DNA of 41,672 nt from Muribaculaceae bacterium (GTDB taxonomy: Bacteria > Bacteroidota > Bacteroidia > Bacteroidales > Muribaculaceae), in NCBI GenBank assembly GCA_022509225.1, contig JAFLTM010000008.1, positions 1 through 41,672 of the forward strand, written 5' to 3'. Shown here piece by piece: positions 1,769 to 41,672 of this stretch (position 1 is the first letter of the stretch; each line of letters opens with the position of its first letter). The translations under genes were made by a program, and so were the position numbers. The notes beneath the pieces were generated by a model. The model had not been told where the DNA came from. It did no database searches and was given only the letters and a program-made list of their open reading frames with translations.

Positions 1769-1808
1769 TCCTAACCCTGTTTGAGTTTAATTCATTTTTT
1801 ATTAAATT

Positions 1809-1816
1809 TACCTTTG
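1809..1816 (+). promoter_or_regulatory. Bacteroidetes-type -7 promoter element (TACCTTTG) for the mannosidase operon
   Basis: TACCTTTG matches the Bacteroidetes primary sigma factor -7 consensus TAnnTTTG exactly. A TTTG lies at 1780-1783, but 25 nt upstream, longer than the usual 19-21, so the -33 element is weak. Transcription would begin near 1822, giving a ~40-nt leader to the ATG at 1865. It supports that ATG over the in-frame TTG at 1781, which lies upstream of this promoter. Confidence 0.5.
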
Positions 1817-1864
1817 CAAGCATTCCCCCGAGTTATCGAGCCCTCTAAACCTGATAATCAAGAT

Positions 1865-6272: not shown

Positions 6273-6327
6273 ATTCTTCTTTAATTTTCCTGCATGAATT
6301 AAGTTTCAAAATGCTAAAATCAACTAT

Positions 6328-8922: not shown

Positions 8923-8933
8923 TCTATTTAAAA

Positions 8934-9917: not shown

Positions 9918-9947
9918 AATTATTTTATTTAACCTAAATATCAGATT

Positions 9948-11048: not shown

Positions 11049-11058
11049 GTTTTTATTA

Positions 11059-19755: not shown

Positions 19756-19833
19756 TAATTTATTTGATAAATTAATATCTATTGTTTATACTTTTAGATT
19801 TAAAATATTCCTGACCGACTCAACTCATTTTAG

Positions 19834-21297: not shown

Positions 21298-21311
21298 CTT
21301 AATCGGAATAT

Positions 21312-27610: not shown

Positions 27611-30600
27611 TTATTTTCTTTGGAGAATCATGATTGGTAATAGGAGGAAGATTGCTAGGAGTGAGAATACAAGGCCGCCCATCGTTCCCGCTGCGAGGGG
27701 GAACCAGAAAGATAATCTCGTTGAGCCGATAAGAAACGGGATAAAGCCTAAGACAGTTGAGAGAACAGTAAGCAACACTGCCACAATCTTGAAATTGAAG
27801 GCTTCGATATAACAATCCTTTGGTGTCCAATCCTGATGCTTTTTTCGCAAAGCGTTGAACTCATTTACAATGTAGATGGCTGCGTTAACTGTTATTCCAG
27901 CCAACAAGACAAAGGCTGCGAATCCTCCCTGGTCGAATTTTAGGTTGAAGAGATAGAAAGTCAGAAACACCCCGATAAATGAAACCGGTATGACAAGTAT
28001 AATGGCCAAGGGTTGACGCAATGAATTGAATAAAATCGAGGAAATAAAGAAAATGATGACTGCAACAAGCAAAATCAGCCAGTATTGTTTCGTGTTTTTC
28101 TCTTCGTACCAATACTCCATACCTTTCTCAGCCTTATAGCCAAGAGGAAGGAGCAGGTTCGCCTTGTCTATCATCCCCTCAAGCACTTTCTTGCCTTGGC
28201 TCGATGAACCAATATACTCGTATTGTAAGGTGACTATATATTCCTGGTCTTCCTTGACAATGTCTTTGGGAGCCTGACGCTTCTCAATCTTTGCGAAATC
28301 CTCAAGCTTATAGTAATTGTCGTTGATTTTAATCGGGATTTTCATAAATCCCCAGACATCACGGTTGTTTTCCGATGAATAAAGCTTTATGTTCTCAAGA
28401 CCATTAGGTCCCAACACCGTTCCCGAAGGAAGTCCGTCTGCCAATTCCCTAGTAATAGATTGGTACAATTGGTTTACAGAGATTTTATTTTTGGAGAGTT
28501 TTTCTTTGTCGATTTCAAGGTAAAATTCCGTGAAATCGTCTTTCCACCATGTGAACTCCGAATTTATCAATACTTCCTTGATTCTTCTGTATGTCAACAA
28601 AGAGTCCCTTATCTGTTCGGCATATTTCATCAGGTTGTCGTAGTTATATCCCGACAATTTGATGCCGGAACTTCCGGCGGTTTCCGCGACATCATTGTTA
28701 AATCCATTGTCCCGCAGCCCGTAGACGCTCCAGCTCCCCCCTCCCAAAGTCAAGGCGTGAGAGATTATTTTTGATTTGAGGCCGTAAGGATAATTGGTGT
28801 GCATGTAATCCGGTTTGAAATATATCCGTATACCGGCCCTTCGGGAATTATAGACATTGGTATGGAATTCTTTTATACCAATCTCTGACGCCAAAAAGAC
28901 CTCCATTCTTCTTATAAGTTCGTTCATTTGACCCAAAGTTGCACCATTCGGTAGGGTTGCGTTGACATAAATCACCGGTTCCTCGTTGCTACGGGAGAAA
29001 TATTCTCCGTTGTAGACTTTCTGAGCAAAAAGTCTGAGGGTGCCACCCAAAAAGGTATCCGCCCAGGGTTTGATTGTTTCCTTATAAAGTGAGGAGCCAA
29101 GAGTAGAGTTATATGTTTTCGACCAAAAGCCCTCTCCCTCAATCTTTTCGGGAAGAAGAAAGACCGGAAGGCCGAAAGCCAGAACAAACACACAACCAAC
29201 AGCCCATCTGAACCTTTGAAGAAAACTTAGGAATTTGGATTCGAATTTTCGCAGAAGTGAGGTCTGGGGCAAATCCAACACAACCGGGGAACCGGAATCT
29301 TTTGACCGGCGTGTCCTTACGTCAATTCTTTCTATCAGGGCCGGAACAAGGAACAGGGCCACAAAAAGGGAAATAATAAGGTTGATGAGCACCACCCAGA
29401 CGAAATCCTTCAGTCCCAAGACAGTTTTCTGGTCAAGGAAAAAGACTATCGACAGGGCTCCGATTGTTGTCAGAGTAGCTGCGAGTACGGCTGTGAAAGC
29501 CCTCAAGTCATGGCGACGGGTTATATGCTCGGTCATGACGATGATATTGTCGATAATAAGGTTAAGGGAAATTGTGATGCCGGCCAACGAATATAATTGG
29601 ATCTCTACCTTGAGGAGATAATAGAAAACGAAAGCCACAGCAATATTAATTGCCAGGCTTATGGCCACCATCAGGAGATAGCGGAGGTTGAGGGTGATGA
29701 GACCGACAAAAACCAGGAGAATAAGAACCGTCAGTCCCGTTCGGAAATAAATGTTGTCCAGTTCCTTGCTTATTCTCTGAGAGGCATCGTAGCTCAGGTC
29801 TATCAAATAACCCTTCGGCAAGGTTTCCTTAAGGCTTTGAAGAGTGTTCCGTATTTCCCTGCTCAATGCGATCTGGTTGGCATCCTTCGTTGCCGAAATA
29901 TTCATGTAGAGTGAATTCAGGCCGTTGATGCGGTAATAACTTAGAGGGTCTGCGTCAAGATGGCGTAAGGTGGCAATTTTATCGATGGTGATTATTCTGC
30001 CGTTGTTGTCATCCACTACAATGTTCTCCAGATTGAGGGAATCCTCTGTCTCAGTCATCGCCACGGTCAAGCCGGGTTGAAGGAACTCCCTTTCGTTTCT
30101 GTTTTTGGTTGCCTCCTGAATATCGCTAATATCTATGTCTAACAACTCTAAAAGATTGGAGTCATAGGTTAGTCTCCATTCCTTGGGTGTTGCACCCGAG
30201 AAATCCACCGATTCGACTCCATGGATTCTTGACAGGGCAGGCTTTATATAATTCTCGGCGTATGTCAGTATTTGGGAGGGGGGCTCGTCGGCGTTGACCG
30301 TGTAACTCATGAAGGGTCCGGCAGCATCGTCGTCTATCTGCTGAAGCGTAATCTCCGGATAGGAGGCGGATTCGGGCAAGTCGTCCCAAAGCTGCCTCAC
30401 GAGCATGGCAGCCTCAAACCGGGCCAGCTCCATGTCGGCGTTCCGGTCGAATTCCAAAGTAACGTAACCGTAGTCCTTACCGGAGCGTGAACTGATTTTG
30501 CCCACCCCTTGAATCCTTGCAAGCATTGATTCCAGCCTGTTGGTGATTTCGGACTCCACAGTCCGCGCAGAACCGTTCATCGTAAAACTGACGGTCAAAG

Positions 30601-30727
30601 ACGGAAGATTTTCAGAAGGGGAAAGTTTGACCGGAAGGCGAAAAGCAAGGAAACATCCCAAAAGAGCCACCGCGATGAAAACTACGATGACCGAAAAAGA
30701 GGGTATTCTTGCCTTCGGTTTCCTCAT
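27611..30727 (-). CDS. RND efflux transporter permease, second of two in the operon
   Basis: The 1038-residue inner membrane protein has the RND layout: one N-terminal transmembrane helix (about residues 10-30), a large periplasmic loop, a bundle of helices, a second loop, and a final bundle. The TM4 proton-relay region reads NLIIDNIIVMTEH, with Asp then Asn instead of Asp-Asp of AcrB; the TM10 Lys is replaced (GITVNAAIYI). It is therefore divergent from drug pumps of the AcrB kind. The ATG at 30727 begins 4 nt after the TolC-like stop; the in-frame TTG at 30763 lies inside that gene and is less likely. Being the last gene, it ends before the hairpin-rich intergenic region. Substrate unknown. 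Confidence 0.88.
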   Translation of the reverse strand: MRKPKARIPSFSVIVVFIAVALLGCFLAFRLPVKLSPSENLPSLTVSFTMNGSARTVESEITNRLESMLARIQGVGKISSRSGKDYGYVTLEFDRNADMELARFEAAMLVRQLWDDLPESASYPEITLQQIDDDAAGPFMSYTVNADEPPSQILTYAENYIKPALSRIHGVESVDFSGATPKEWRLTYDSNLLELLDIDISDIQEATKNRNEREFLQPGLTVAMTETEDSLNLENIVVDDNNGRIITIDKIATLRHLDADPLSYYRINGLNSLYMNISATKDANQIALSREIRNTLQSLKETLPKGYLIDLSYDASQRISKELDNIYFRTGLTVLILLVFVGLITLNLRYLLMVAISLAINIAVAFVFYYLLKVEIQLYSLAGITISLNLIIDNIIVMTEHITRRHDLRAFTAVLAATLTTIGALSIVFFLDQKTVLGLKDFVWVVLINLIISLFVALFLVPALIERIDVRTRRSKDSGSPVVLDLPQTSLLRKFESKFLSFLQRFRWAVGCVFVLAFGLPVFLLPEKIEGEGFWSKTYNSTLGSSLYKETIKPWADTFLGGTLRLFAQKVYNGEYFSRSNEEPVIYVNATLPNGATLGQMNELIRRMEVFLASEIGIKEFHTNVYNSRRAGIRIYFKPDYMHTNYPYGLKSKIISHALTLGGGSWSVYGLRDNGFNNDVAETAGSSGIKLSGYNYDNLMKYAEQIRDSLLTYRRIKEVLINSEFTWWKDDFTEFYLEIDKEKLSKNKISVNQLYQSITRELADGLPSGTVLGPNGLENIKLYSSENNRDVWGFMKIPIKINDNYYKLEDFAKIEKRQAPKDIVKEDQEYIVTLQYEYIGSSSQGKKVLEGMIDKANLLLPLGYKAEKGMEYWYEEKNTKQYWLILLVAVIIFFISSILFNSLRQPLAIILVIPVSFIGVFLTFYLFNLKFDQGGFAAFVLLAGITVNAAIYIVNEFNALRKKHQDWTPKDCYIEAFNFKIVAVLLTVLSTVLGFIPFLIGSTRLSFWFPLAAGTMGGLVFSLLAIFLLLPIMILQRK

Positions 30728-30731
30728 AAAT

Positions 30732-32219
30732 TCAGCGGACTCCCTGAATATTATCGAAATCAACGGTTATGGGCATGTCAAACTCAAAATCATAGAGCGT
30801 CAGCCTTCTTATCTTGAAATAATTAGCCCAGTAATTTTGCATTGCGGTGATGTAATTCTTGCTCGCCTCTTGCTGCCGGTTGTGGGAAAGTGTCAGGCTG
30901 TTGATATCAGCAGTTCCGATAATGAATCTCTGTCGAGTCTGGTAGTATGCCCTGTCTGCAAGATCCAAGGCTTCCTGGGCACTCTCGATAAGGCGCGTCT
31001 GGGTATGAAAGTCGTTGACTGTCATCATAACTTCTTGCTCCAGTTCCAGTTCCTGTTGTTTTGCCGCGATTTGTGCCTCGTTTAGATTGTTTTTGGCAAT
31101 GTTGTGCTGTCCCTTCTTCACTCCCCAGTCGAGCAACGGGAAAGATATGCTGACCGACACCAAATCTTGTTGAAGAAGGTTCCGATAGGATTGTGGGAAT
31201 GTCGGTGCCACCTGATTGAATCCAACGCTTGCATTCAGGTTGGCATTGAAATATTTTTGGATACCGGTGCGGCTCACTTCTCTTTGTGCCTCAAGTATGG
31301 TCTGACGATGTCCTGTCAGTTCGGGATTGTTTTTCCGCGCGTTTTCTATAGCCAAATCGAGTGGGATTTCAAAGAGAGCGGGTTTACCGGGGATTATCAC
31401 CTCGATTTCACTGTCTTTGTCGATTCCGAGATAAGAGGCCAATGCAAACATCCCTTTCTTTATACTTATGCGGGCGTTTTCAAGCGAGTTATCGGCGTTA
31501 ATCTTGTCTAATTTAAGTGTCAGGAGTTCGTCCTGGGAGATTGAGGCTATCTTGAATCTTCTTTCCCCGATTGCATAAAGGGTGTCGCAGGAAGCCACGT
31601 TTTCTTCTGCCAACCTGTATTCGGTCTGGGCCATTGCGAGATTGAAAAAGAGTTCGACCACTGTTTCAGAAACCGTTTCCATGTTGAAAACAAGCTCCTG
31701 CCGTGCCTTTTCATATTTGATCGGCTCAATTTTTCTGTCCCATCTGAACTGATTGAACCCGAGCAATTGCTGGGAGTAACCGATTCTCACGGGAACCGTG
31801 GAAAACTGGGTTGAGGAATATTCCCCGAAGTTTCGCATATACTCAAGGTCGCTCTCAACGTAAAGTGTTCCGCCGAGGAAATCCACGTTCTGGGTTATGT
31901 TCAGCCCCGCTGAAGCGCTAAACATCTGTTGGGGACGAAACACGTCGATGTTTTCATCGTAATTGTATCTCTGGGTTATGTATCTGTAATATTCCGCAGG
32001 AAGAAGGTTCAGGGATACGGAAGGAAGTCGGTTGGCCTTGAATGTTCGCCATTGCCAATAGCCGGCGTTGTAAAAATTCCGGTATCTGAAGGTTGATAGG
32101 GAACTGTCGTTTGCCATCTTGACTGCGTCTTGCAGGGAAAGAACCCGTTTGTCCCCGGCTTGACTCTGATAGGAAACCGACAGCAGAATTATTACGGATA
32201 AGATTTTCAGGACACGCAT
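30732..32219 (-). CDS. TolC family outer membrane efflux protein
   Basis: The 495-residue protein has a signal peptide ending near YQSQA, then the TolC opening motif LSLQDAVKMANDSSL and long amphipathic helices in two related halves (for example LAIENARKNNPELTGHRQ). It forms the outer membrane channel of the tripartite pump encoded here. The start overlaps the upstream RND gene by 13 nt, and the next permease starts 4 nt after its stop, so all four genes are likely one transcript. There is no lipobox, so the protein is not lipidated, unlike OprM types. Confidence 0.9.
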   Translation of the reverse strand: MRVLKILSVIILLSVSYQSQAGDKRVLSLQDAVKMANDSSLSTFRYRNFYNAGYWQWRTFKANRLPSVSLNLLPAEYYRYITQRYNYDENIDVFRPQQMFSASAGLNITQNVDFLGGTLYVESDLEYMRNFGEYSSTQFSTVPVRIGYSQQLLGFNQFRWDRKIEPIKYEKARQELVFNMETVSETVVELFFNLAMAQTEYRLAEENVASCDTLYAIGERRFKIASISQDELLTLKLDKINADNSLENARISIKKGMFALASYLGIDKDSEIEVIIPGKPALFEIPLDLAIENARKNNPELTGHRQTILEAQREVSRTGIQKYFNANLNASVGFNQVAPTFPQSYRNLLQQDLVSVSISFPLLDWGVKKGQHNIAKNNLNEAQIAAKQQELELEQEVMMTVNDFHTQTRLIESAQEALDLADRAYYQTRQRFIIGTADINSLTLSHNRQQEASKNYITAMQNYWANYFKIRRLTLYDFEFDMPITVDFDNIQGVR

Positions 32220-35200
32220 TGTTTTCGGTTGTATTTTAAGACATAGAGGAGAGGGATTACAAAGATGCTGACAAGAGTTCCGATAATCATGGAGCCTATC
32301 ATGGCGATTGCCAAAGGCCGTTGAAGTTCGGAACCCAAGTCGGAGGTGAAGAGCACAGGCACCATCGCCAGAATGGTGGTCAGGGAGGTCATCAGTATGG
32401 ATTTCAGTCTTCTCTGACCGGCGAGATGCACTGCCTTAATCATTTCAATTCCCTTTTTACGCAACTCGTTGATCGCATCTATTTTAAGGATTGAGTCGTT
32501 GACCACTATACCGCATGTGACAATGATGCCGATGGCGGACATGACGTTGAGGGTTTGACCGAAAATCCAGAGGGAGATAAGCGCGAATGTGACGTCGATG
32601 GGTATTTCAATCAGCACTATCAGGGGTTGGAAGAAACTCTCGAACTGTGCGCAAAGTATGAAATACATCAGCAGCAGAGATATAAGAAGGATAACTATGA
32701 GTTCCCTCATCATTTCCATATTGGAAAAGAGTGAGCCGGTGAAAACGGCGTCGACATTGCGGTCCCCAACGGAAATATCCATTATCACATCCATAATTTT
32801 GTCTGCTCCCTTCTTGTCAGAGTCGAATTCCAACGGAATATATTCCCCTCCGTTTCCTGCCGTTATGGTTTTGAAATCTGATGTTTTTCTTGATTTCAAA
32901 AGGCTTTTCAAGGGTATATGGGTGAAATTGCCCTCTTTGTCGGGAATTGTCGCGACAAGAGTTTCCTCAAGGGTTTTCCTAAGACTTGTGGAATCTTCCT
33001 TTATTTGAATTGGAATATAATCCCGGTTAGACCTCAATGTCCCTATTTGGTTACCTTTAAAAGCGACCCGGAGGGCTTTCATCACCTCCTGCGAGCTGAC
33101 ATGATAGAGGGCCAGTTTTTCATTGTCGATGATAAGCTCGGTTCTTTCCCGAAGAGGAATTCTTTCCACAGGTTGACTGATGTTTTGCTCCACCTTCCCC
33201 GCCATTTCTTCAATCTTTTTAATGCTGTTTTCCGAAGAGGTGTTTCTTATCGATATTTGGGCCACCAAAGGTTTTTCATCCGAGGAAAACACTTTTTCGA
33301 AAACGTTTTCGGGAGCTGAAAAGGAAATTTTTGCCTTGGGGTAACTCTCCTTTATCAGGTTTTCAGCGTGGGCTTTGATCTCATCAAGCTGTGAAGGATT
33401 GTCGACTCTGAGATAAATCTCAGCTTCCGACGTTGATTTCTCATCCGAGGCATCAACAAGGAAGTCTTGCAATCCGATGAAAGCGGAGTTTTCCTCGGTT
33501 GCTTGTGCGAGTTTTTCGAGAAGTTCGTTTGTTCTTGTCCGGTTCTCGTCGATGTTGACGTTTTCGTTCCATTCAATATTGACTATGGTTTCAGCACTGT
33601 CGATTTTTGGCATCCTTTCAGTTTTCAGGACGAAAAACAACCCGATACATCCGAAGGTTGCCAAAAGAGTGAAAACCAAGGTGATGAATTTATGGGAGAA
33701 AACAAAGTTGATACCCCAGTCATACCATCGGATTATCAACGGTTGGGTGGTTTTCGGATTTTCTGTTATATCAGTGATCTCCTCCAGTTCATGTTTTTTC
33801 ACTCTTTTCATTAAGAGGAAATAAAGAACAGGCAGGAGTGTTATGCCGACCACATAAGAAGAAGCCAGACCTGCTGTGATTGCAAAAGCCTGGTCGGCGA
33901 AGATGGCCCCGGCGATACCGCTCATGAATACCAGTGGCACGAACACTGCTATGGTGGTGAGTGAGGAACTAAACATCGGGGTTATCATCTCGGTGGTTCC
34001 CTGGATGCAGCTTTCCTCAAGCGTGTGGTGTCGTTGGCGGTATTGGGTGATGTTTTCTGCCACAATCACGGAATTGTCGATCATCATGCCGACTGCCAGA
34101 ATCAAACCGGCCAGTGAGATGATGTTGATGGAAATGTGGAAAAGGTAGAACAACAGGAAGGTCATGACCACCGCTACCATCACCGTCACTCCGATTATGA
34201 CCGGCAGCCGGCCGCTACGCATGAACAGTGCGCAGACAAGGAATACGAGGATAAGGCCTAAAATGAGGTTTTGCTCCAGATTGCTGATTGTGAAATCCAG
34301 CAATTGGGTTTGGCTGCGACTCTTAGAAAACTGCAGCTCCGGATAGAGCCCGGAAAAGTAGTCGATACTGCTGTCGACGGCCTTCTCAAGATTGTCCATG
34401 CTTTCGTTGGCCTGTTTGATAACGGCCATTGTGACAGCCCTTTTACCGTTATGGTAGGAATAGCCTGTCGGTTCAGTCTCCTTGATGTCGACCTCGCAGA
34501 AATCACCGATAGTGAAAATCCTTCCCTCTTTTACAATTGGTATGTTCCTGACATCTTCCGGAGTGGTCAGGGTGTTGGAAATGTGAATGTCGTATTCATA
34601 ATGTCCGTCACGCACTGTCATGCTTCCGGGCTCCACATTTGCCGATTCCAACGCATCTTCGATTTCATCCGTGGTGATTCCGCCACTCTTCATTGCAGAC
34701 TGATTCGGAACGATACGTAGTTGACGCTCCGGCACTCCCGTTATGTCAATCATCGCCACTTCCGGTTGTTGCTCCAATCGTCTTCTCACAATTTCGTCGG
34801 TTAGTTCACTGAGTTCAAGGAAGTTGTCGTCGTCTTCTTTTGATGTGACATGGACATAGACAACCGGGATATCGGTTGCGCTTGCCTTCACGGCCTTTGG
34901 ACGGGAGATGGTTTTGGGCAATGCGTTCATGGCCGCGTCGATTTTCTCGTTCACCTCGATGAATGCAAAGTCAGTGTTTACTCCGTAGTCAAGTGTTAGT
35001 TTGATTATTGCCGAACCGTCTCGGGTCTCGCTTTTGAGTTCCTCAAGTCCGTTGACCTGCATCAACTGACGACGGACGGGGGTGACCACACTCGTTTCCA
35101 ATTCCCTGGCTGAATAGTTACCCTCGGTTATTTTCACTGTGATGTGGGGGATGGATATGTCGGGCAATAGAGAAACCGGAAGGGTGAAAAAGGTCACCAC

Positions 35201-35269
35201 CCCCACGATTATGAGGGCGAGATAAGCCATAAGTACGGCTATGGGCCGGTGAATCAGGAATTTGATCAT
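32207..35269 (-). CDS. RND efflux transporter permease, first of two in the operon
   Basis: This 1020-residue permease is a typical HAE-like RND pump. The N-terminus MIKFLIHRPIAVLMAYLALI is the first transmembrane helix, followed by LPVSLLPDISIPHITV and the pore domains. TM4 has VGMMIDNSVIVAENI (Asp-Asn) and TM10 has CGIVVNDSILKIDAINELR, so the AcrB Lys940 position is Asn and the following residue is Asp. The start overlaps the membrane fusion protein stop by 4 nt (ATGA). It and the other permease of this operon share the overall fold but differ strongly in the relay residues and loops. They may form a heterotrimer in the manner of MdtBC, which is inference. Confidence 0.92.
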   Translation of the reverse strand: MIKFLIHRPIAVLMAYLALIIVGVVTFFTLPVSLLPDISIPHITVKITEGNYSARELETSVVTPVRRQLMQVNGLEELKSETRDGSAIIKLTLDYGVNTDFAFIEVNEKIDAAMNALPKTISRPKAVKASATDIPVVYVHVTSKEDDDNFLELSELTDEIVRRRLEQQPEVAMIDITGVPERQLRIVPNQSAMKSGGITTDEIEDALESANVEPGSMTVRDGHYEYDIHISNTLTTPEDVRNIPIVKEGRIFTIGDFCEVDIKETEPTGYSYHNGKRAVTMAVIKQANESMDNLEKAVDSSIDYFSGLYPELQFSKSRSQTQLLDFTISNLEQNLILGLILVFLVCALFMRSGRLPVIIGVTVMVAVVMTFLLFYLFHISINIISLAGLILAVGMMIDNSVIVAENITQYRQRHHTLEESCIQGTTEMITPMFSSSLTTIAVFVPLVFMSGIAGAIFADQAFAITAGLASSYVVGITLLPVLYFLLMKRVKKHELEEITDITENPKTTQPLIIRWYDWGINFVFSHKFITLVFTLLATFGCIGLFFVLKTERMPKIDSAETIVNIEWNENVNIDENRTRTNELLEKLAQATEENSAFIGLQDFLVDASDEKSTSEAEIYLRVDNPSQLDEIKAHAENLIKESYPKAKISFSAPENVFEKVFSSDEKPLVAQISIRNTSSENSIKKIEEMAGKVEQNISQPVERIPLRERTELIIDNEKLALYHVSSQEVMKALRVAFKGNQIGTLRSNRDYIPIQIKEDSTSLRKTLEETLVATIPDKEGNFTHIPLKSLLKSRKTSDFKTITAGNGGEYIPLEFDSDKKGADKIMDVIMDISVGDRNVDAVFTGSLFSNMEMMRELIVILLISLLLMYFILCAQFESFFQPLIVLIEIPIDVTFALISLWIFGQTLNVMSAIGIIVTCGIVVNDSILKIDAINELRKKGIEMIKAVHLAGQRRLKSILMTSLTTILAMVPVLFTSDLGSELQRPLAIAMIGSMIIGTLVSIFVIPLLYVLKYNRKQCVS

Positions 35270-36324
35270 TGTGCGAAGCTGACCGGGGATTCGTGAGCCA
35301 GATTTTCGTTGCCGTTTATAATGACTGTTTGTCCGGATTGCAGACCATCCTCAACCACATAGCTGTCAAGATTTTCGGCACCAGTCGCTACATAGTTCCA
35401 ATATGCTTTGCCATCCTTGAGGGTGAAGACCACCTGTCGGCCGTTTCGCAACACAACGGCACTTTTGGGAATCACCAGGGAGCTTTCCAACTCCCGGTTG
35501 ATTTTGACCCGGGCGTTGAGTCCGTCGATTAGTCCCGTGCTTTTGTCAAGGTTGGCCTTGATTTTGATCTGACCGTTTTCATCGACAACGGGGTTTATCT
35601 CGACTATTCTACCAATGTAGGTTTCCGAAGTTGAAAACGGCATGACATCAACCGTGTCTCCGATTTTCACAAGCCCGATTTCACTGTCGAGCACAGGAAA
35701 TTCAATCGACATTGCTCCGTCGCTGATAATCCTCATCGCCGGCTCGCTTGCGGGCGAAAGAGAATGTCGCTTAAGGTTTACGTTCGCCACGACTCCGCTG
35801 AATGGTGCCTTTAGGATTGCTTCCTCTATTTCCCTTTTGGTGGTCTGATAACTTGCCTCAGCCTTGTCGAGACCGCTTCTGACTCTTGCCAGGTTCATTA
35901 CCTCGGCCGGAATCTGTGACATCTTTTCCGGATCGAATCCCTGTCCGATTAGCACGTCTTGTAGCTCTAATTTTGCCTGGGCTATGTCTGTTTCGTTCTG
36001 TTTCAGTTGTTTCTCAAGCTTGTATGTATCAAGCGAGGCCAACCTTTGACCTTTCTCTACGTGCTGACCGTTGTGCACAAGCACTTCTGCCACTATATCA
36101 GGTCCGCGGAAAGACAGGTCGGCGAATTCACCGGCATGAACCTTGCCGTTGCTGACGACATTTGCCGAGAAAACTGTGGGCACCAAGTACATTGTATCCA
36201 CCTGAGCCTTGGTATCCGGGGATGATGTCTTGATTTCCTCGTTCTCAGTTTGCTTGTCCCCGTTTTTATCTGAACAAGCAAACAGGAAAACGAATAAAAA
36301 TATGATAAGGGTTAATTTTTTCAT
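35266..36324 (-). CDS. RND efflux membrane fusion lipoprotein (HlyD/AcrA type)
   Basis: The 352-residue periplasmic adaptor has a lipobox LFAC (C17), a barrel-sandwich hybrid (GEFADLSFRGPDIVAEVLVHNGQHVEKGQ and its partner ILKAPFSGVVANV), a short helical hairpin between them, and beta-barrel and membrane-proximal domains. The ATG at 36324 gives a standard lipoprotein signal; the longer reading from a TTG at 36378 adds 18 residues before it and has no support. It is the first gene of the operon. A TATTTTTG at 36383-36376 fits the -7 element but has no good -33 partner, so the promoter is not settled. No regulator gene is adjacent; the nearest genes upstream belong to the NVEALA/propeller group. 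Confidence 0.9.
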   Translation of the reverse strand: MKKLTLIIFLFVFLFACSDKNGDKQTENEEIKTSSPDTKAQVDTMYLVPTVFSANVVSNGKVHAGEFADLSFRGPDIVAEVLVHNGQHVEKGQRLASLDTYKLEKQLKQNETDIAQAKLELQDVLIGQGFDPEKMSQIPAEVMNLARVRSGLDKAEASYQTTKREIEEAILKAPFSGVVANVNLKRHSLSPASEPAMRIISDGAMSIEFPVLDSEIGLVKIGDTVDVMPFSTSETYIGRIVEINPVVDENGQIKIKANLDKSTGLIDGLNARVKINRELESSLVIPKSAVVLRNGRQVVFTLKDGKAYWNYVATGAENLDSYVVEDGLQSGQTVIINGNENLAHESPVSFAQ

Positions 36325-36412
36325 CACTTTAGGTTTTAGGAACACTTCGTGACTTTGAATTTTGGGTTTATTTAGCAAAAATAATCTATTTCTTGTAAAC
36401 TTATCTTTGGGC

Positions 36413-36484
36413 TATAAAATAGAATAAACAAGAATTCAGAACCAGACTTTTCACAACAAAAATCTTTTATTTCAAAATAGTGCC
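36413..36484. repeat. 72-nt direct repeat, copy A
   Basis: This segment matches 38221-38292 at 66 of 72 positions. It sits directly after the propeller gene terminator on the minus strand and ends inside its hairpin. It marks the end of a duplicated module. Confidence 0.85.
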
Positions 36485-36503
36485 AAGATTAGTTCTTGGC
36501 ACT
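36479..36503 (-). terminator. Intrinsic terminator of the first propeller gene
   Basis: AGTGCCAAGA (36479-36488) pairs with TCTTGGCACT (36494-36503) around a 5-nt loop. On the minus strand it continues into ATTTTGAAATAAAAG. It ends the 36548-37723 gene and isolates it from the efflux operon. Confidence 0.7.
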
Positions 36504-36547
36504 GTTTCTAACTATCAATTTATTATTTCTATTTAAAAACCTTATTA

Positions 36548-37723
36548 TTAGATTTTTATCTTATAAAAGACAAATACCGGATTTGATTCCTCACTCATCT
36601 TTTCTGACAATTCCCTAAGCAATGGAGAATCCCGTAAGTTATCGGCATTACTAGCAATTGCCTGTACAAAATCAGAAGGAATTATGCTCAGTACTTCTTT
36701 ATTGTCGGGGTTGTCATGTAGATCTATGAAAGTGATGGGTAATTTTTTAGAGTCCAGCCCTAAAAAACCATTTGCAATCACTTTGCCTTCAAAGGAGACC
36801 AATGCAATTTTTGGTCTGTCGGAAACATACCCAAACAACAATTTGTCATCCCACATGTATGGCGCATTTATAATATCCGGTGCAGTTGAATTTTGAATGC
36901 TAGTTATTTCTTCTTGAGTTGCATAATGTGTTATATTGCGTTTTGAGGTTCCTATCTTTATATCCAGCAAAGGCTTCAATTTCCCTTTATCCATATCCAA
37001 CTGATATATAGTGTCGTTATATGGAAAAAAAGTAAAAACGCCGTCTTTTGACTCGAAGAATTTACCTGTCTGCCCGTTAAATGAATAGGATAAACCTGTC
37101 ATAATGGGATTAAAAGGAATCTGATTGAAGTTTTGCTCCTTTCCCTTGAATGAATAGCTGTAGTTATCCTTGGTTGATTCGTTTGCATAGGCAAAACCGT
37201 TGTTCAAGGCTATACCACTCGGAATCACAGACAAGCCCTTAGAGGCATTTTCAAGATTTATGGTGCCCATAAACCGGTCGTCTGTTGTGTATTTATAGAT
37301 TTTGTTTCCAGAAAGGATATAAATGAAACCCTCCTTAATATCCATATCGTTTAAAACGGGATATTCCCCGGGACCTTGACCTATGTGTGAATAATTTCGG
37401 ATATATTTCCCATTGGAATCATAACTCGTTATAAACTGCGATCCATGCATAACAAACAGGGTGTCTCCTATCAGATAGACCTTATTAATTTTTCCCAACA
37501 TGGAACTATCTGAAATTTCTGGAATTATATATCTGTTATATTCAAAAATTGAATCGAATTGTTCAGCTGTAATTTTATCATTTTTGTCAGGTATGGTTAT
37601 TGTCACGAAACCCTTACCATCCTTTCCATCATCTTTTACCTTACAACTAATAAAACAGACAAGGAAAAGGAAAAGGAAAATTATCGCAAAATGATTTGAG
37701 TTGGAATTTCTCTTTAAATACAT
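36548..37723 (-). CDS. Six-bladed beta-propeller lipoprotein, module 1
   Basis: This 391-residue lipoprotein (lipobox-like FISC, C27) belongs to the Bacteroidales propeller proteins found beside NVEALA peptides. Repeated blade motifs are visible: INKVYLIGDTLFVMHG followed by ITSYDSNGKYIRNYS, then GQGPGEYPVLNDMDI, the hallmark GxGPGEY turn of this group, and later GTINLENASKG. No enzymatic motif is seen. Its ATG overlaps the end of the NVEALA peptide gene by 10 nt, so the two are translationally coupled. A similar gene lies at 38344-39387, but overall protein similarity is moderate. The propeller may bind the processed peptide or a cell-surface partner; this is inference from the neighbourhood only. 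Confidence 0.85.
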   Translation of the reverse strand: MYLKRNSNSNHFAIIFLFLFLVCFISCKVKDDGKDGKGFVTITIPDKNDKITAEQFDSIFEYNRYIIPEISDSSMLGKINKVYLIGDTLFVMHGSQFITSYDSNGKYIRNYSHIGQGPGEYPVLNDMDIKEGFIYILSGNKIYKYTTDDRFMGTINLENASKGLSVIPSGIALNNGFAYANESTKDNYSYSFKGKEQNFNQIPFNPIMTGLSYSFNGQTGKFFESKDGVFTFFPYNDTIYQLDMDKGKLKPLLDIKIGTSKRNITHYATQEEITSIQNSTAPDIINAPYMWDDKLLFGYVSDRPKIALVSFEGKVIANGFLGLDSKKLPITFIDLHDNPDNKEVLSIIPSDFVQAIASNADNLRDSPLLRELSEKMSEESNPVFVFYKIKI

Positions 37724-37968
37724 GGCAAAGATCCATTACCTGTACATAATATCTCTATCTCTACACTTATAGTACCATCTGAATATACTGTTGTAACCGT
37801 TCTTCTTGTCACCTCGGCATATCTTGCTGATTCTGGATCATCAGCTAAAGCTTCGATATTAGCCAATATTATATTTGATTCTTTTGTTTGTTGGAAAGGC
37901 TTTGAGACTGCCAGTGATACTGTCCCAAGAACGGCTATAAGCAAGCCGGTAAACAAAATTTTCTTCAT
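37714..37968 (-). CDS. NVEALA family peptide, intact copy
   Basis: The 84-residue product begins with a signal-like segment (MKKILFTGLLIAVLGTVSLA) and has the family motif as NIEALAD at residues 37-43. The rest is a Thr- and Glu-rich tail with two Cys, C75 and C83, in the arrangement CTGNGSLPC. NVEALA proteins are short exported Bacteroidales polypeptides of unknown function; the motif is thought to mark a leader boundary. The ATG follows the DUF1573-like fragment by 8 nt, and the stop overlaps the propeller ATG. The first ~48 bases after codon 3 are identical to the second copy at 39638-39685, a sign of recent duplication or conversion. Confidence 0.85.
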   Translation of the reverse strand: MKKILFTGLLIAVLGTVSLAVSKPFQQTKESNIILANIEALADDPESARYAEVTRRTVTTVYSDGTISVEIEILCTGNGSLPCI

Positions 37969-37976
37969 ATCTTTTG

Positions 37977-38213
37977 TTATTTAAAGTTATAGATTATGAC
38001 TATTTGAGATATCCGTAAACTACAAGTCGTTCCGGATTGTCTTTTTCTTTGTAAAAAAATGTCTATATGTTTTCGAAAGGAACTTTCAATTGAGTCTGAT
38101 TTGAATTTCACCTCAAGTCGATTCACTTGGTTTGAAGTCAGAGTAATAGTATCCACAATCACAGTAATGCAATCGCATGAAGGAACTATTTCCTGTAAGA
38201 TAGCAATTTGCAA
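37977..38213 (-). pseudogene. DUF1573-like fragment, N-terminus missing
   Basis: The reading frame (78 codons, only a TTG available as start) resembles the C-terminal part of a DUF1573 Ig-like domain: EIVPSCDCITV matches the SCGC-type motif, and LEVKFKSDSIESSFRKHIDIF matches the next strand pair. The signal peptide and first strands are missing, and the sequence upstream is the 72-nt repeat, with no continuation in other frames. I read it as a remnant cut when the module was duplicated. The DUF1573 assignment rests on these motifs only, so it is tentative. Confidence 0.45.
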
Positions 38214-38220
38214 TAAAAAT

Positions 38221-38292
38221 TATAAGAAAGAATAAACAAGAATTCAGAACCTGACTTTTCTCAACAAACATCTTTCATTTCAAAATAGTGCC
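38221..38292. repeat. 72-nt direct repeat, copy B
   Basis: This matches 36413-36484 at 66 of 72 positions and likewise runs from the downstream flank into the terminator hairpin of a propeller gene. The DUF1573-like fragment begins within 10 nt of its outer end. Confidence 0.85.
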
Positions 38293-38316
38293 GGGGAAAA
38301 TACTCGGCACTATTTT
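38282..38316 (-). terminator. Intrinsic terminator of the second propeller gene
   Basis: AAAATAGTGCCG (38282-38293) pairs perfectly with 38305-38316 around an 11-nt loop. A-rich and T-rich flanks on both sides make it potentially bidirectional. It ends the 38344-39387 gene. Confidence 0.8.
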
Positions 38317-38343
38317 TTAATTTTATTCCTATGGTATTGGCAT

Positions 38344-39387
38344 TTATATGGTGACATAAACAAGTTTTCCAGCCTCTCCAAAAATTAACTGGCCATTTTT
38401 AATTCCCAGAATCGAACCGACATTTTCAAGGCTGGCCTTATCCAATTTATAGAACCCTTTGGACGACAGATCTTTCATGTTAAAAATATAAAGATACAAG
38501 TCATCGTTTTGAAAAAAGGTAAACAGGATTGTCTCACCATCGTTGAATATGGAAAGCGGATTATGAACCAAGCCTCCGTCGTGGATTTGGTGGAACATGG
38601 TGAAGACATCGCTCTTCTCTATCTTGGAAAAATCCGGCCATAAGCCATTGAAGTCGAATTCACATAAAACCTTGGCCTGCCCGTCATAACAAACATAAAC
38701 CCTGTTTTCAACCGGAGGAAGATAGAGCACCGTATCATTGTTAACCCGCGAAAACACATTATAACTTGTGAAGGTCACATCCTGGATTTCTTCCGGTATT
38801 TTTAGTACCTCATTCCTCTTTCCTTTTTTATAATACACCAGTTTGTCATCGTTGCCGTTAGCCCCGTTTCCCTTTTCTATCCATACGCTCCCATTATCCG
38901 TGAGGATGAAGTGGTTGGCCTGGGATTCTGTCTTCTTTTTGTTAAGGAAATTGAGGTTATGGTCTAGATTTATTATATTTCCGTCCGGGTCATTCTCCAG
39001 TATCGATATCTGTTCGTCGTTGACCGAAATATCAAATATGTTGATAAACTCCTCCGGCCCGTTTCCTCTTTTTGTGTAAGAGCCTATCTGCTTACCTTTG
39101 GTGTCATAAAGATACACTCCGGGGGCTTTGAACATATCCATAACAACCAACGTGTCCCTGAGCCATTCAATTTTAGAAATTTTACCGGGAAAATCATTAA
39201 ACCCTGAATCGCTTAATAGCTGGACATTTATGCTCCGGATATTTTCAGCCAAAGGAAGGGCGTTTTTTAAATCTATCTCAACAATGTCAACACTCTCCGG
39301 GACTTCATCTCTTTTACAATTGTAAAACAAAAAAACTGAGAGACATAAGGCAAAGAGTATTTTAAAAGTTTTAAATTGTTTTTTCAT
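38344..39387 (-). CDS. Six-bladed beta-propeller lipoprotein, module 2
   Basis: This 347-residue lipoprotein (C24 in FYNC) is related to the 36548-37723 protein. It shows the same opening blade, ISKIEWLRDTLVVMD, then VYLYDTKGKQIGSYTKRGNGPEEF, where NGPEEF replaces the GPGEY turn, and repeated hydrophobic strands to the C-terminus. It is 76 nt downstream of the frameshifted NVEALA copy, not overlapping as in module 1, and has its own promoter candidate in that gap. The start is the ATG giving MKKQFKTFK. No catalytic residues can be named; a ligand-binding or scaffold role is likely for this fold. Confidence 0.83.
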   Translation of the reverse strand: MKKQFKTFKILFALCLSVFLFYNCKRDEVPESVDIVEIDLKNALPLAENIRSINVQLLSDSGFNDFPGKISKIEWLRDTLVVMDMFKAPGVYLYDTKGKQIGSYTKRGNGPEEFINIFDISVNDEQISILENDPDGNIINLDHNLNFLNKKKTESQANHFILTDNGSVWIEKGNGANGNDDKLVYYKKGKRNEVLKIPEEIQDVTFTSYNVFSRVNNDTVLYLPPVENRVYVCYDGQAKVLCEFDFNGLWPDFSKIEKSDVFTMFHQIHDGGLVHNPLSIFNDGETILFTFFQNDDLYLYIFNMKDLSSKGFYKLDKASLENVGSILGIKNGQLIFGEAGKLVYVTI

Positions 39388-39403
39388 TTTTCTTTAATAA
39401 TCA

Positions 39404-39435
39404 CAAATTTAGAAAAATTATTTGAGAACAACAAT
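39404..39435 (-). promoter_or_regulatory. Candidate promoter of the second propeller gene
   Basis: On the minus strand ATTG (39435-39432), 20 nt, then TAAATTTG (39411-39404): the -7 element is exact and the -33 differs at one base. The leader would be only ~10 nt. It would let the propeller be made without the peptide gene upstream. Confidence 0.5.
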
Positions 39436-39463
39436 ATGTGTTTATTTTTTATATTGAGAATCT

Positions 39464-39692
39464 TTAGAATACGGTTCCAGGACAAGCAAACCTCCCACCA
39501 TGGGTACATTGCCATTCATCTTCACTGATAAATGAAACAACCCATATGCCTGGTTGTAATTCAATGTCGGCCAAAGCTTCAATATTAGCAACTATAAGGT
39601 TTGATGCCTTGGTTTGTTGGAAAGGTTTTGCGACTGTCAGTGATACTGTCCCAAGAACGGCTATAAGCAAGCCGGTAAACAAAATATTTCAT
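39464..39692 (-). pseudogene. NVEALA family peptide, second copy, frameshifted near the start
   Basis: Aligned with the intact copy, the ATG at 39692-39690 is followed by AAATATTTTG where the other gene has AAGAAAATTTTG, a net loss of two bases. From that ATG the frame ends after 35 codons without the family motif. The other frame is open for 72 codons from a TTG at 39682, preceded in frame by TGA at the ATG, and encodes FTGLLIAVLGTVSLTVAKP, then NIEALAD at 33-39 and CTHGGRFAC (C59 and C67). The body is thus intact while the start is broken. It could still be translated from TTG or ATT, or be a sequencing indel. It lies 11 nt downstream of the DUF3244-like gene. Confidence 0.6.
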
Positions 39693-39703
39693 GAATAAGG
39701 AAA

Positions 39704-40066
39704 TTAAAATTGAATATATCCTGACAAAACCACATCAGGACCCCTCAATACAATTGAATATATGCCTGGAGTTGGAAGCATCTTCAGTGTCTGAACAAAT
39801 GAGCTTCCATCATAGGAAACAGAAAAACAAGATTCTCCGCTCTCATCCCAAATCTCATAATCCGTAATATAATCAAGAATTGAAGGTCCGGAAATTGTCT
39901 CCTCCTCAAAGTTAATTTCACAATAAATTGGAAGGGAACGATGACCCCTGCTTGGATTCTCTTTCTCATTTTCAATTCCTTCAATAAGTTCTATGGTATC
40001 TGAGTAAATGGGCGTAGTCATGAATAATAACGACACAATCAAAATTAATAAACGATGGTTTTTCAT
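39704..40066 (-). CDS. Small secreted protein, DUF3244-like
   Basis: The 120-residue protein has a clear signal peptide (LLILIVSLLFMTTPIYS), then RSLPIYCEINFEEETI, a central YEIWDESG, and a final GIYSIVLRGPDVVLSGYIQF. This pattern of RSLPI opening and GxYxIxL ending is that of DUF3244, small beta-sandwich proteins of Bacteroidales that are often coded near NVEALA peptides and propeller proteins. No lipobox is seen, so it is probably periplasmic or secreted. It is first in the line of genes after the TPR regulator, and its leader of ~94 nt holds an 11-bp tandem repeat. The family assignment is from pattern memory and is moderately sure. Confidence 0.65.
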   Translation of the reverse strand: MKNHRLLILIVSLLFMTTPIYSDTIELIEGIENEKENPSRGHRSLPIYCEINFEEETISGPSILDYITDYEIWDESGESCFSVSYDGSSFVQTLKMLPTPGIYSIVLRGPDVVLSGYIQF

Positions 40067-40119
40067 ATGTATTTTTTTTGTTTACAAAACTATGATCCAT
40101 CTCCATATTTCCTATGAAA

Positions 40120-40170
40120 ATTTGTTCGGAATTTGTTCGGAATTGAATTGCCGAAAAGATTCCGTACAAA
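40120..40170. promoter_or_regulatory. Tandem 11-bp repeat with an inverted third copy: possible regulator site
   Basis: ATTTGTTCGGA occurs at 40120-40130 and again at 40131-40141, one helical turn apart. A third copy with one mismatch, on the opposite strand, is TTTGTACGGAAT at 40170-40159. All three lie between the promoter and the start of the DUF3244-like gene. Confidence 0.5.
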
Positions 40171-40198
40171 TATAATCCAATAATATTCTCATAATAAA
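40167..40198 (-). promoter_or_regulatory. Candidate promoter of the DUF3244/NVEALA genes
   Basis: On the minus strand TTTA (40198-40195), 20 nt, then TATATTTG (40174-40167): an exact -7 element and a -33 with one mismatch. It overlaps the last codons of the regulator gene. A second -7 match (TAGTTTTG, 40092-40085) lacks a -33 element. Confidence 0.5.
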
Positions 40199-41672
40199 CG
40201 GATTATGACTTCAAGGTCTTTTACCCCAAAATTAGTGCCAAAAAGCTTTTTTGTAAGTTTTGTCTTTCGCTCTGAAATAGTGCTCTTACCTTTTGAAACG
40301 ATATCTGCTATGGCTGAGGTGCCGTATCCGTAACGTATCAGTATAATCATACGCTTTTCTTCTTCTGCCAAATCGGTTCTTGTAAGTTTCTCCAGTACAT
40401 TGAAAAAATCCGGGGTGATCTGATTGAAGGATTCTTTTATTATGGCCCAATTCGATGATGAATCACCTATGTTTTTTCCTGTTTCAACGGATTCCTTTAT
40501 AATTTTATAGCCTTCTGTGTTTATGTATAGACTTTGTTTTGGTTTCTCCTTGTTTATGCCTTTCTTCAAATCTTCATTATATTTTTCCAATTTCGCCTTT
40601 ATTTCCTTTAAATTATCAAAGACAGACGTCCTGGATTCCTCCTCTGTAATACCCAGTTGGGCTCTTAACCTCTCGATCTTTTCAAGAGTTTGAAGATACT
40701 GTATTTTATGTTGTATCTGCTTATAACGCAAAAATATTACGAGTGCGACAGCAGCTACGGCTATAATTATGGTTATCAGCCATCCCGTCAAGATCCTCCT
40801 GGACCTCATTTGAAGATTTAGATTTTCTTTTTCATAACGTGAATAATTGTATATAGAATTTTGATTTATAATAGCCTCCTTGGTATTTTGATTGTAATAA
40901 TTCTCTAGCAAGATTAAATAATTATTGAGTAATTCATTGAGTTCTTCTTTTTGCAATCTTCCTCGCATTTTTTCACTAAGAAGCACTTTATGAGCCGTGA
41001 TCCCCCAACTTTTTTTATGGCTCCTCAAAAGTCTTTTAGCATGGTTATATGCGGAATCCAGATTTCCGACATTATAATAAATGTCAGTGGAATATGAATA
41101 AAAGAATTCTCCGGTTTCCTCGTCATTCAAATTTTGTGGAATAGTTTCAATAATATTTAATGCCGATAAGTCGTCTCCCTTCATATGATTTATGGCAGCT
41201 AAGTATATTTTCATAATAGCCGTACTTACTGTATCACTGGGTTGAATCAACTCCAAGGCTTTTCTGACATTGCTTTCCGCCTCTTTATATTTACCTATGT
41301 TCATATATAGGGACCCAAGTAGCTGAAGGTCGAATGGCAGGTTGACTGAATCATTCAAAAGGCTGTCCATTCTTACAGCTTCTTTAAGATAGGGTAAAGC
41401 TTGACTCCTAAGACGCATTGTATTTAGGAGCCTTCCTGTCTGGCTAAGTATCGTGGCTTTAAGATTAGGATTGTCAGGGTTGTCCGCAAGAAAATCTAAT
41501 GCATTTTGGAAATAATCGAGGGCTGTAGGGTAATCCCCCAAATCACTATAGACCCTACCTCCGTAATAAAGAACTTCGGGATACAGAGGATCTGATTTCC
41601 TGCGGTTAAAATAATTTAAGACAGAAAGATAGAGCGAGTCGGAAGTGTGAACAGTATAGGCTTTGTCTGACT
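40189..41672 (-). CDS. TPR/transmembrane/HTH regulator, 5' end beyond the window
   Basis: The frame is open to the window edge, so the N-terminus is missing; 494 codons are visible. In order there are tetratricopeptide repeats (for example YPEVLYYGGRVYSDLGDYPTA-like and LLGSLYMNIGKYKEAESN), a single transmembrane helix (WLITIIIAVAAVALVIFL, about 40735-40800), a coiled coil, and a C-terminal LuxR/GerE-like helix-turn-helix (RYGYGTSAIADIVSKGKST) in the last ~60 residues. Such proteins would sense in the periplasm by TPRs and bind DNA in the cytoplasm, a one-component membrane regulator common beside Bacteroidales peptide/propeller clusters. It is the natural candidate to control the genes at 40066 to 36548, which follow it on the same strand. 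Confidence 0.82.
   Translation of the reverse strand, partial: SDKAYTVHTSDSLYLSVLNYFNRRKSDPLYPEVLYYGGRVYSDLGDYPTALDYFQNALDFLADNPDNPNLKATILSQTGRLLNTMRLRSQALPYLKEAVRMDSLLNDSVNLPFDLQLLGSLYMNIGKYKEAESNVRKALELIQPSDTVSTAIMKIYLAAINHMKGDDLSALNIIETIPQNLNDEETGEFFYSYSTDIYYNVGNLDSAYNHAKRLLRSHKKSWGITAHKVLLSEKMRGRLQKEELNELLNNYLILLENYYNQNTKEAIINQNSIYNYSRYEKENLNLQMRSRRILTGWLITIIIAVAAVALVIFLRYKQIQHKIQYLQTLEKIERLRAQLGITEEESRTSVFDNLKEIKAKLEKYNEDLKKGINKEKPKQSLYINTEGYKIIKESVETGKNIGDSSSNWAIIKESFNQITPDFFNVLEKLTRTDLAEEEKRMIILIRYGYGTSAIADIVSKGKSTISERKTKLTKKLFGTNFGVKDLEVIIRLL

Follow-up and report, generated by a model that had tools for sequence, protein, structure and literature searches.

We analyzed a window of 41,672 nucleotides, the whole of contig JAFLTM010000008.1 (G000:C88) of a Muribaculaceae metagenome-assembled genome (MAG; 1.98 Mb; 83% complete). 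With a probability of roughly 0.58, a minus-strand region of this window encodes a secreted-peptide system of exchangeable cassettes with a dedicated exporter. Each cassette pairs a gene for an NVEALA peptide precursor (PF14055) with a gene for a propeller lipoprotein (PF17170), and the exporter is of the resistance-nodulation-division (RND) type. There is good support for a real, conserved peptide system of several genes, and we strongly infer dedicated export and a cognate-partner logic. The stronger evidence comes from the exporter, from the processing genes, and from the way the mature peptide is coupled to the propeller, none of which the original prediction included. The original prediction had seen a candidate undescribed peptide system here, a view that the gene set, the linkage, and the co-variation support.

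Gene order in the window

In transcription order, the cluster consists of R, D, NVEALA2, propeller 2, a remnant, NVEALA1, propeller 1, an adaptor, RND 1, an outer-membrane factor, and RND 2, all on the minus strand. The features are as follows.

40189-41670, minus strand: R, a membrane regulator with tetratricopeptide repeats (TPR), a transmembrane segment (TM), and a helix-turn-helix part (HTH), 5' end missing (TPR matches; 18-row alignment; relatives in 66/111 genus genomes)
39704-40066, minus strand: D, a small secreted protein of 120 aa (local profile; without Pfam model)
39567-39688, minus strand: leader repeat copy 2, 122 nt, 88% (repeat comparison)
39464-39682, minus strand: NVEALA2 precursor, no ATG, first start TTG (PF14055, 28.9 bits; 28.8 bits in another search)
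38344-39387, minus strand: propeller 2, partner of NVEALA2 (PF17170, 70.3 bits, E = 2.1e-19)
38221-38315, strand not assigned: 3' repeat and hairpin after propeller 2, 95 nt, 84% (14-bp stem)
37977-38213, minus strand: remnant of the T lipoprotein family, DUF1573 end (E = 1.2e-7; alignment)
37841-37962, minus strand: leader repeat copy 1, 122 nt (repeat comparison)
37714-37968, minus strand: NVEALA1 precursor, 84 aa (PF14055, 21.5 bits; 51-row profile, 49.8 bits)
36548-37723, minus strand: propeller 1 lipoprotein, partner of NVEALA1 (PF17170, 68.5 bits, E = 7.4e-19)
36413-36507, strand not assigned: 3' repeat and hairpin after propeller 1, 95 nt (repeat comparison)
35266-36378, minus strand: RND periplasmic adaptor, lipoprotein (HlyD_3, 50.6 bits; profile match begins at 36324)
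32207-35269, minus strand: RND subunit 1, overlapping the adaptor gene (local RND profile)
30732-32219, minus strand: TolC-like outer-membrane factor (local outer-membrane-factor profile)
27611-30763, minus strand: RND subunit 2 (local RND profile)

The genes named in the original prediction all lie on one strand, as it had said, and the 10-nt overlap that it gave for peptide and propeller in module 1 is exact. Its gene set was present but incomplete: the RND exporter, the T remnant, and the framing repeats lie beyond it. The four exporter genes (27611 to 36378) stand directly downstream of propeller 1, and their open reading frames (ORFs) overlap each other. Both propellers match PF17170 well above its curated cut-off (22.9 bits). 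They had also been called lipoproteins, for which the lipobox is clear by eye in propeller 1 and weaker in propeller 2. Against solved relatives, propeller 1 gave one weak NHL-repeat match (E = 0.0036). Two NVEALA genes had been predicted, of which NVEALA2 exceeds the curated PF14055 cut-off (27 bits) and NVEALA1 falls under it; NVEALA1 is itself a row of the 51-row profile that gives it its higher score. The frame of NVEALA2 (first in-frame start at 39682) lacks the usual basic N-end, and this gene may be impaired or may reflect a MAG error. An RNA element between 27000 and 41672 was rejected, as no Rfam match reached gathering scores there.

Peptide-propeller pairs and their apparently exchanged cargo

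In 75 loci, including the window, we read 113 distinct NVEALA genes, and 105 of them have a same-strand propeller gene at most three genes downstream. The propeller comes immediately after the peptide in 92 of these 105 cases (median gap, 49 nt; overlapping in 27/92); of the other eight NVEALA genes, six precede something other than a propeller, and two are at an edge. No propeller was found among 662 genes of 40 control regions, chosen by hand at round positions within 16 of the genomes that supplied the loci; both the propeller and the NVEALA profile were trained on the loci and not on the controls, which favors the loci. The proposal that peptide and propeller form one unit is supported. 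At the genome level, PF17170 propellers were present in 19 of the 111 genomes of the genus set, i.e., in 12/14 with NVEALA versus 7/97 others.

The NVEALA family itself is patchy. PF14055 matches occurred in 11/111 genus genomes and in 29/392 genomes of the order set. The 51-row profile, which contains rows from many genomes that it then finds, matched 39/111 genus genomes at an E value of 0.01 (many doubtful by length and score), 14/111 below 1e-4 (hand count without exclusions), and 32/392 order genomes at 1e-5. The precursors share a layout in which a hydrophobic leader of about 43 residues ends in NVEALA and is followed by a short, Cys-containing mature peptide. We obtained 97 peptide-propeller pairs (105 minus 8 without a recognized motif), and 96 of the 97 mature parts have at least two Cys residues. 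Around the presumed cut of these 97 proteins, Ala stands at position -3 in 86, A/S/T/G at -1 in 95, and Glu at +3 in 77.

On its own, the window shows shared flanks around different cargo. The 122-nt leader repeat and the 95-nt 3' repeat with its hairpin frame both modules, and for the 14-bp stem after propeller 2 a terminator-like call was made on the plus strand alone. Expressed as a share of the self score, the similarity between the two modules is 0.88 for leaders, 0.14 for mature peptides, and 0.07 for propellers. The same contrast was observed across the loci, where leaders were more alike within than between genomes (median, 0.31 versus 0.20; p = 7e-31) and mature parts differed little in this respect (0.107 versus 0.101; p = 0.025). 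At the DNA level, 171 within-genome pairs included 24 with like leaders. In all but one of these 24, the mature and propeller sequences were unlike; the 23 pairs came from seven genomes, including that of the window. This is the pattern that cassette exchange behind the leader would leave. One cluster (G426:C6:19654-36500; L049 and L050) contains nine same-strand NVEALA matches whose leaders are nearly identical and whose mature parts are unrelated; a propeller follows most of the nine.

We then compared mature parts and propellers in 85 of the 97 pairs; dropped pairs were not immediately adjacent, shared a propeller, or were too short. Within genomes (144 pairs), mature-part similarity correlated with propeller similarity (rho, 0.335; reached by 0/2,000 shuffles; 0.20 once the ten most alike mature pairs were removed), and leader similarity gave a rho of 0.07 (reached by 161/2,000 shuffles). 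Between genomes, the rho of leader and propeller was 0.089 (reached by 21/1,000 shuffles). Where mature parts were similar (at least 0.25), 24 of 32 between-genome pairs had a propeller similarity of at least 0.15 (expected, 5.07; 0/2,000 shuffles), and all five within-genome pairs had similar propellers (expected, 1.16). Pairs with similar leaders had similar propellers at chance level (0/8 between and 3/35 within genomes).

The original prediction also raised the possibility of surface display. Acidic residues after the lipid cysteine are a signal for surface export of lipoproteins. Among the 142 of 179 propellers with a recognized lipobox, this signal was not enriched (0.92 D/E in six positions versus 0.91 expected). 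Display by means of the acidic signal was rejected on this basis; another surface route is possible.

Separate adaptor and signal peptidase families

The window holds a tripartite RND set, i.e., an adaptor, RND subunits, and an outer-membrane factor. The adaptor was typed by Pfam and the other components by local profiles; relatives in locus L140 were typed by Pfam ACR_tran and OEP. The unselected tests of adaptor and peptidase are the genus and order searches and 20 generic adaptor loci. Any adaptor match is found in 103/111 genus genomes. The window adaptor, however, gave 22 genus matches of at least 184 bits (itself included), then a 92-bit fragment in G087, and then generic adaptors of at most 87 bits. 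With the G087 fragment, this strong family is present in 18/111 genomes: 13/14 with NVEALA versus 5/97 others, and 16/19 with propellers versus 2/92 others. Of the 22 strong adaptors, 18 lie on a contig with NVEALA or a propeller (hand count; one is 12 kb off and one rests on a weak propeller match); the other four lie on short contigs or where a contig starts, and one of these has S and W genes (described below). None of the families NVEALA, propeller, T, G, S, W, R, and D was detected in the 20 generic loci.

A 50-row adaptor tree placed 25 adaptors from seven families in one clade with an SH-like approximate likelihood ratio (SH-aLRT) support of 100. Within this clade, 21 adaptors are located by NVEALA or propeller genes and four are contig-edge cases; outside it are 23 generic adaptors and two near NVEALA loci (L025 and L027). 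Most rows came from loci picked for NVEALA, R, or propeller matches, and these labels are therefore partly a result of choice. Eight loci that reach far enough, including the window, contain two RND genes, versus at most one in generic loci.

In the order search, in which five candidates were scored per genome, the adaptor was detected at an E value of 1e-45 in 73/392 genomes. It was present in 25/29 genomes with PF14055 versus 48/363 others and, by the 51-row profile, in 28/32 NVEALA genomes versus 45/360 others. NVEALA and adaptor were at most 16 kb apart in 17 of the 28 genomes with both, and NVEALA was upstream on the same strand in 16 of these 17.

The signal peptidase of L141 likewise belongs to a distinct family. 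It gave 16 genus matches of at least 133 bits (itself included; frames of 273 to 351 aa), followed by LepB-type matches of at most 81 bits, mostly of about 470 to 550 aa. Thirteen of the 16 dedicated-type peptidases are on contigs with NVEALA, a propeller, or a strong adaptor (hand count; exceptions, G027:C21, G061:C93, and G098:C197). In the window's own genome, which is incomplete, only a LepB-type match was found.

Companion genes were counted in 57 NVEALA loci (omitting three overlapping others, L029, L041, and L050) and the 40 controls. The profiles (T, G, S, W, H, K, M, E, and O) were built from proteins clustered near NVEALA, which favors NVEALA loci in these counts, and the Pfam names rest on representatives. 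The most frequent companions were T, a thioredoxin/DUF1573-like lipoprotein (38/57 versus 0/40), G, a transglutaminase-like lipoprotein (28/57 versus 1/40), S, a signal peptidase I (19/57 versus 0/40), and W, a Wzy_C/TPR membrane protein (19/57 versus 1/40). The adaptor (12/57), RND (10/57), and outer-membrane factor (11/57) were each found in 1/40 controls. Differences were not significant for histidine kinases (14 versus 5), response regulators (13 versus 3), R (2 versus 0), and D (3 versus 0).

L140 and L141 are the clearest full clusters in the genus. L140 encodes R, D, a MauE-like protein, T, a divergent NVEALA-like peptide missed by the profile, a propeller, an outer-membrane factor, an adaptor, and two RND proteins; MauE is also present in L066 and L068. 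Local profiles detected neither an intact T gene nor any S, G, or W gene on the window contig, which makes its cluster a reduced version.

Five adaptor loci came from genomes without an NVEALA match; three have propellers, one has a signal peptidase, and one is cut short. Two adaptor loci without recognized NVEALA (L186 and L187) contain glycosyltransferase-like and mannosyltransferase-like membrane genes by eye. Together with the Wzy_C proteins elsewhere, these genes hint at glycosylation of the peptide or its partner.

As a different export route, we considered a C39 peptidase-ATP-binding cassette (C39-ABC) protein acting on GG leaders. A motif pattern scan, rather than a profile search, of ORFs longer than 450 aa in 141 sources (the window and L020 to L159) detected such a gene only in L085, an R locus without NVEALA, and this route was rejected for NVEALA.

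Proposed mechanism, alternatives, and related systems

We propose that the NVEALA precursor would insert in the inner membrane via its hydrophobic leader and that a type I signal peptidase would cut it after the A-x-A of NVEALA, using a dedicated enzyme in many clusters. The mature peptide would be oxidized to disulfides, with MauE and thioredoxin-like helpers where present. Its export would then fall to a dedicated RND pump, tripartite and with two RND genes. The propeller would be the cognate partner of the peptide encoded just before it, binding it as an immunity protein or a receptor. The cluster would be under the control of a membrane sensor, which would be the TPR-TM-HTH protein in the window and a divergent histidine kinase in other loci. 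As to role, antagonism with the propeller as immunity protein is our tentative first choice, at somewhat less than even odds. The chances are nearly even that this is a new class of weapon-and-immunity or pheromone-and-receptor system, marked by peptidase-released disulfide peptides, a two-RND pump, and the swapping of peptide plus propeller behind a shared leader.

Several observations weigh against an exchangeable-cassette system with a dedicated exporter. About 15 residues separate the hydrophobic stretch from the presumed cut, which is long for signal peptidase I. In the order set, 4 of the 32 NVEALA genomes have no adaptor match, the 45 adaptor genomes noted above among the 360 others have no NVEALA match, and of the 28 genomes that have both, 11 (e.g., G460 and G220) do not have them within 16 kb of each other. 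The window cluster has only a T remnant, no S, G, or W, and an odd NVEALA2 start. Between genomes, the overall correlation of mature and propeller similarity is weak (rho, 0.082; reached by 55/1,000 shuffles). Mature part and propeller do travel together, but co-travel alone is no proof of binding.

The strongest alternative role is pheromone signalling, in which the peptide would be an autoinducer and the propeller its receptor, and a membrane sensor would read the complex and switch the cluster on. We consider it possible but rather unlikely. The matched change of peptide and propeller would suit ligand-receptor pairs, and candidate sensors are linked to the cassettes. A histidine kinase lies immediately upstream, in divergent orientation, of 13/95 NVEALA genes versus 3/629 control genes (L022, L024, L026, L029 to L031, L034, L037, L056 to L058, L074, and L078; a response regulator is often next), and we propose it as a second kind of sensor for the NVEALA cassette. 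Counted anywhere in the locus, however, histidine kinases were not significant, and the nine NVEALA matches in the single G426 cluster are many for one sensor.

R is the other candidate sensor. It had been predicted to be a TPR/TM/HTH regulator, and it has a PF13424 match (E = 4.7e-13), a hydrophobic segment, and a C-terminal HTH-like part. The HTH was read from the 18-row alignment; no Pfam HTH match was present among 25 of 26 families listed. The gene runs off the contig end, and a search of genome contigs with R returned one locus with a match over 24 residues only. Its relatives in the genus include many paralogues; a lipobox-like N-end, present in 26 of 33 relatives, is followed by TPRs, the hydrophobic segment, and a conserved HTH-like end. 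In 12 of 99 typed R places, NVEALA or a propeller lies on the same strand no more than 10 kb further downstream, where a rough estimate predicts about 0.21 such cases (99 R and 66 NVEALA/propeller places among the matches listed, with further same-cluster matches mostly left out). The predicted link of a membrane regulator to such clusters therefore holds for some of them. Lack of enrichment of these families near each other was to count against the original prediction; enrichment was found, and the prediction stands in this respect. R is nevertheless promiscuous. Only 1 of 20 R loci (L094), fetched among the stronger R matches regardless of NVEALA, has NVEALA or a propeller, and R as a dedicated NVEALA regulator was rejected as too narrow. 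RRNPP receptors join a TPR sensor to a DNA-binding part and have their peptide nearby, as does R. We rejected R as a member, since such receptors are cytoplasmic TPR-HTH proteins without a membrane segment; R has a hydrophobic segment between TPR and C-terminal part, and its TPR is predicted to be outside the cytoplasm, with the lipobox-like start of its relatives.

D had been called DUF3244-like. The window protein has no Pfam match, and DUF3244 was rejected, being found in 0 of 16 family members at an E value of 0.1; two of the 16 each gave a single doubtful match to another DUF. The family, found by local profile, has 27 database relatives, the two with a taxon name both being Muribaculaceae MAGs, and D follows R in 10 of the 20 R loci (hand count). 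R-D pairs were also seen elsewhere: L085:8546-19844 has one next to genes for a VKOR protein and a C39-ABC peptide exporter, L147:3384-5680 one next to a VKOR-like gene (by eye), and L083:8250-10498 one next to a small GG-leader-like ORF (by eye). R-D looks like a general module that may also serve other peptide export clusters.

A less probable alternative, which we regard as doubtful, is that the propeller acts on its own peptide as a maturation enzyme or chaperone. Six-bladed propellers include enzymes, the gene order and overlap would suit a co-made factor, and specificity for the mature part would likewise give co-variation. No catalytic set is visible, however: an alignment of 28 propellers has two invariant columns only, the lipid-type Cys and one Gly. 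It is still more improbable that the RND pump exports other cargo (a drug or lipid) and that the NVEALA proteins are uncleaved small membrane proteins adjusting either the pump or the propeller. AcrZ is an example of a small membrane protein that binds an RND pump, and some adaptor loci have propellers and no recognized NVEALA (L185 and L189), but the end with the Cys residues is hypervariable and follows the propeller, and the A-x-A rule and the separate signal peptidase family point to cleavage. That these genes are mere neighbors in a variable genome region, without joint function, is disfavored to the point of being scarcely credible: the loci are patchy (14 of the 111 genus genomes, as above) and companions are not all present per locus, but the adaptor and peptidase families are separate from generic ones and presence at the genome level is matched.

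The preferred system of exchangeable cassettes resembles several known ones. In polymorphic toxins of the contact-dependent inhibition (CDI) type, the N-terminal delivery part is shared, the C-terminal cargo is exchanged, and the adjacent partner changes with the cargo. The same hallmark was found here, i.e., a shared N-terminal part and exchanged C-terminal cargo with a co-varying neighbor. In contrast to the CDI type, the cargo is about 30 to 70 residues, the partner is a propeller lipoprotein, and no CdiA/Rhs carrier was seen, none having been looked for. Adaptor, RND, and outer-membrane factor are as in HAE-type pumps (AcrAB-TolC), and the two RND genes recall the heteromeric MdtBC as covered in part of PMC8277102. 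The adaptor clade here is separate and tied to NVEALA and propeller genes, and the substrate would be a ribosomal peptide. GG-leader systems with C39-ABC exporters (colicin V type), including the Bacteroidales clusters for ribosomally synthesized and post-translationally modified peptides treated in the available part of PMC10352776, likewise have a conserved leader, a variable Cys-containing mature peptide, and dedicated processing and tripartite export. Here, in contrast, the leader ends in A-x-A rather than GG, RND and signal peptidase I replace C39-ABC, and each peptide has a propeller. The survey covers C39-ABC systems, and propellers, signal peptidase, and TPR are not mentioned in the available main text.

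A gene set with matching names (a comparison by name only) and with neighboring locus tags appears in the iron-response tables of PMC10434189 for the tractable laboratory strain Bacteroides thetaiotaomicron VPI-5482: BT0662 (O-antigen ligase), BT0663 (hypothetical), BT0664 (6-bladed propeller), BT0667 (signal peptidase I), and BT0669 (RND adaptor). These are table rows, not described as a system in the parts of that paper available; within the literature searched, no other paper contained any of six such tags. The literature searched, to which most subscription papers and all bioRxiv preprints were external, had no mention of "NVEALA" or "DUF5128", and no description of such a peptide-propeller-exporter system was found in it, including the available parts of PMC9425974 and PMC8277102. 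If true, our proposal would mean that the abundant gut Bacteroidales have a widespread, unstudied way to make and export small disulfide peptides, with RND pumps in a job usually given to ABC exporters. For the propeller lipoproteins, a large family, the pairing with a peptide offers a hypothesis that is simple and can be tested.

Elsewhere in the window, three minus-strand lipoprotein-like genes (18115 to 22970) resemble fimbrillin-type proteins by eye. A plus-strand row at 185 to 13884 contains glycoside-hydrolase-like, mannose-6-phosphate-isomerase-like, and ROK-kinase-like genes by eye and is likely a glycan-use cluster.

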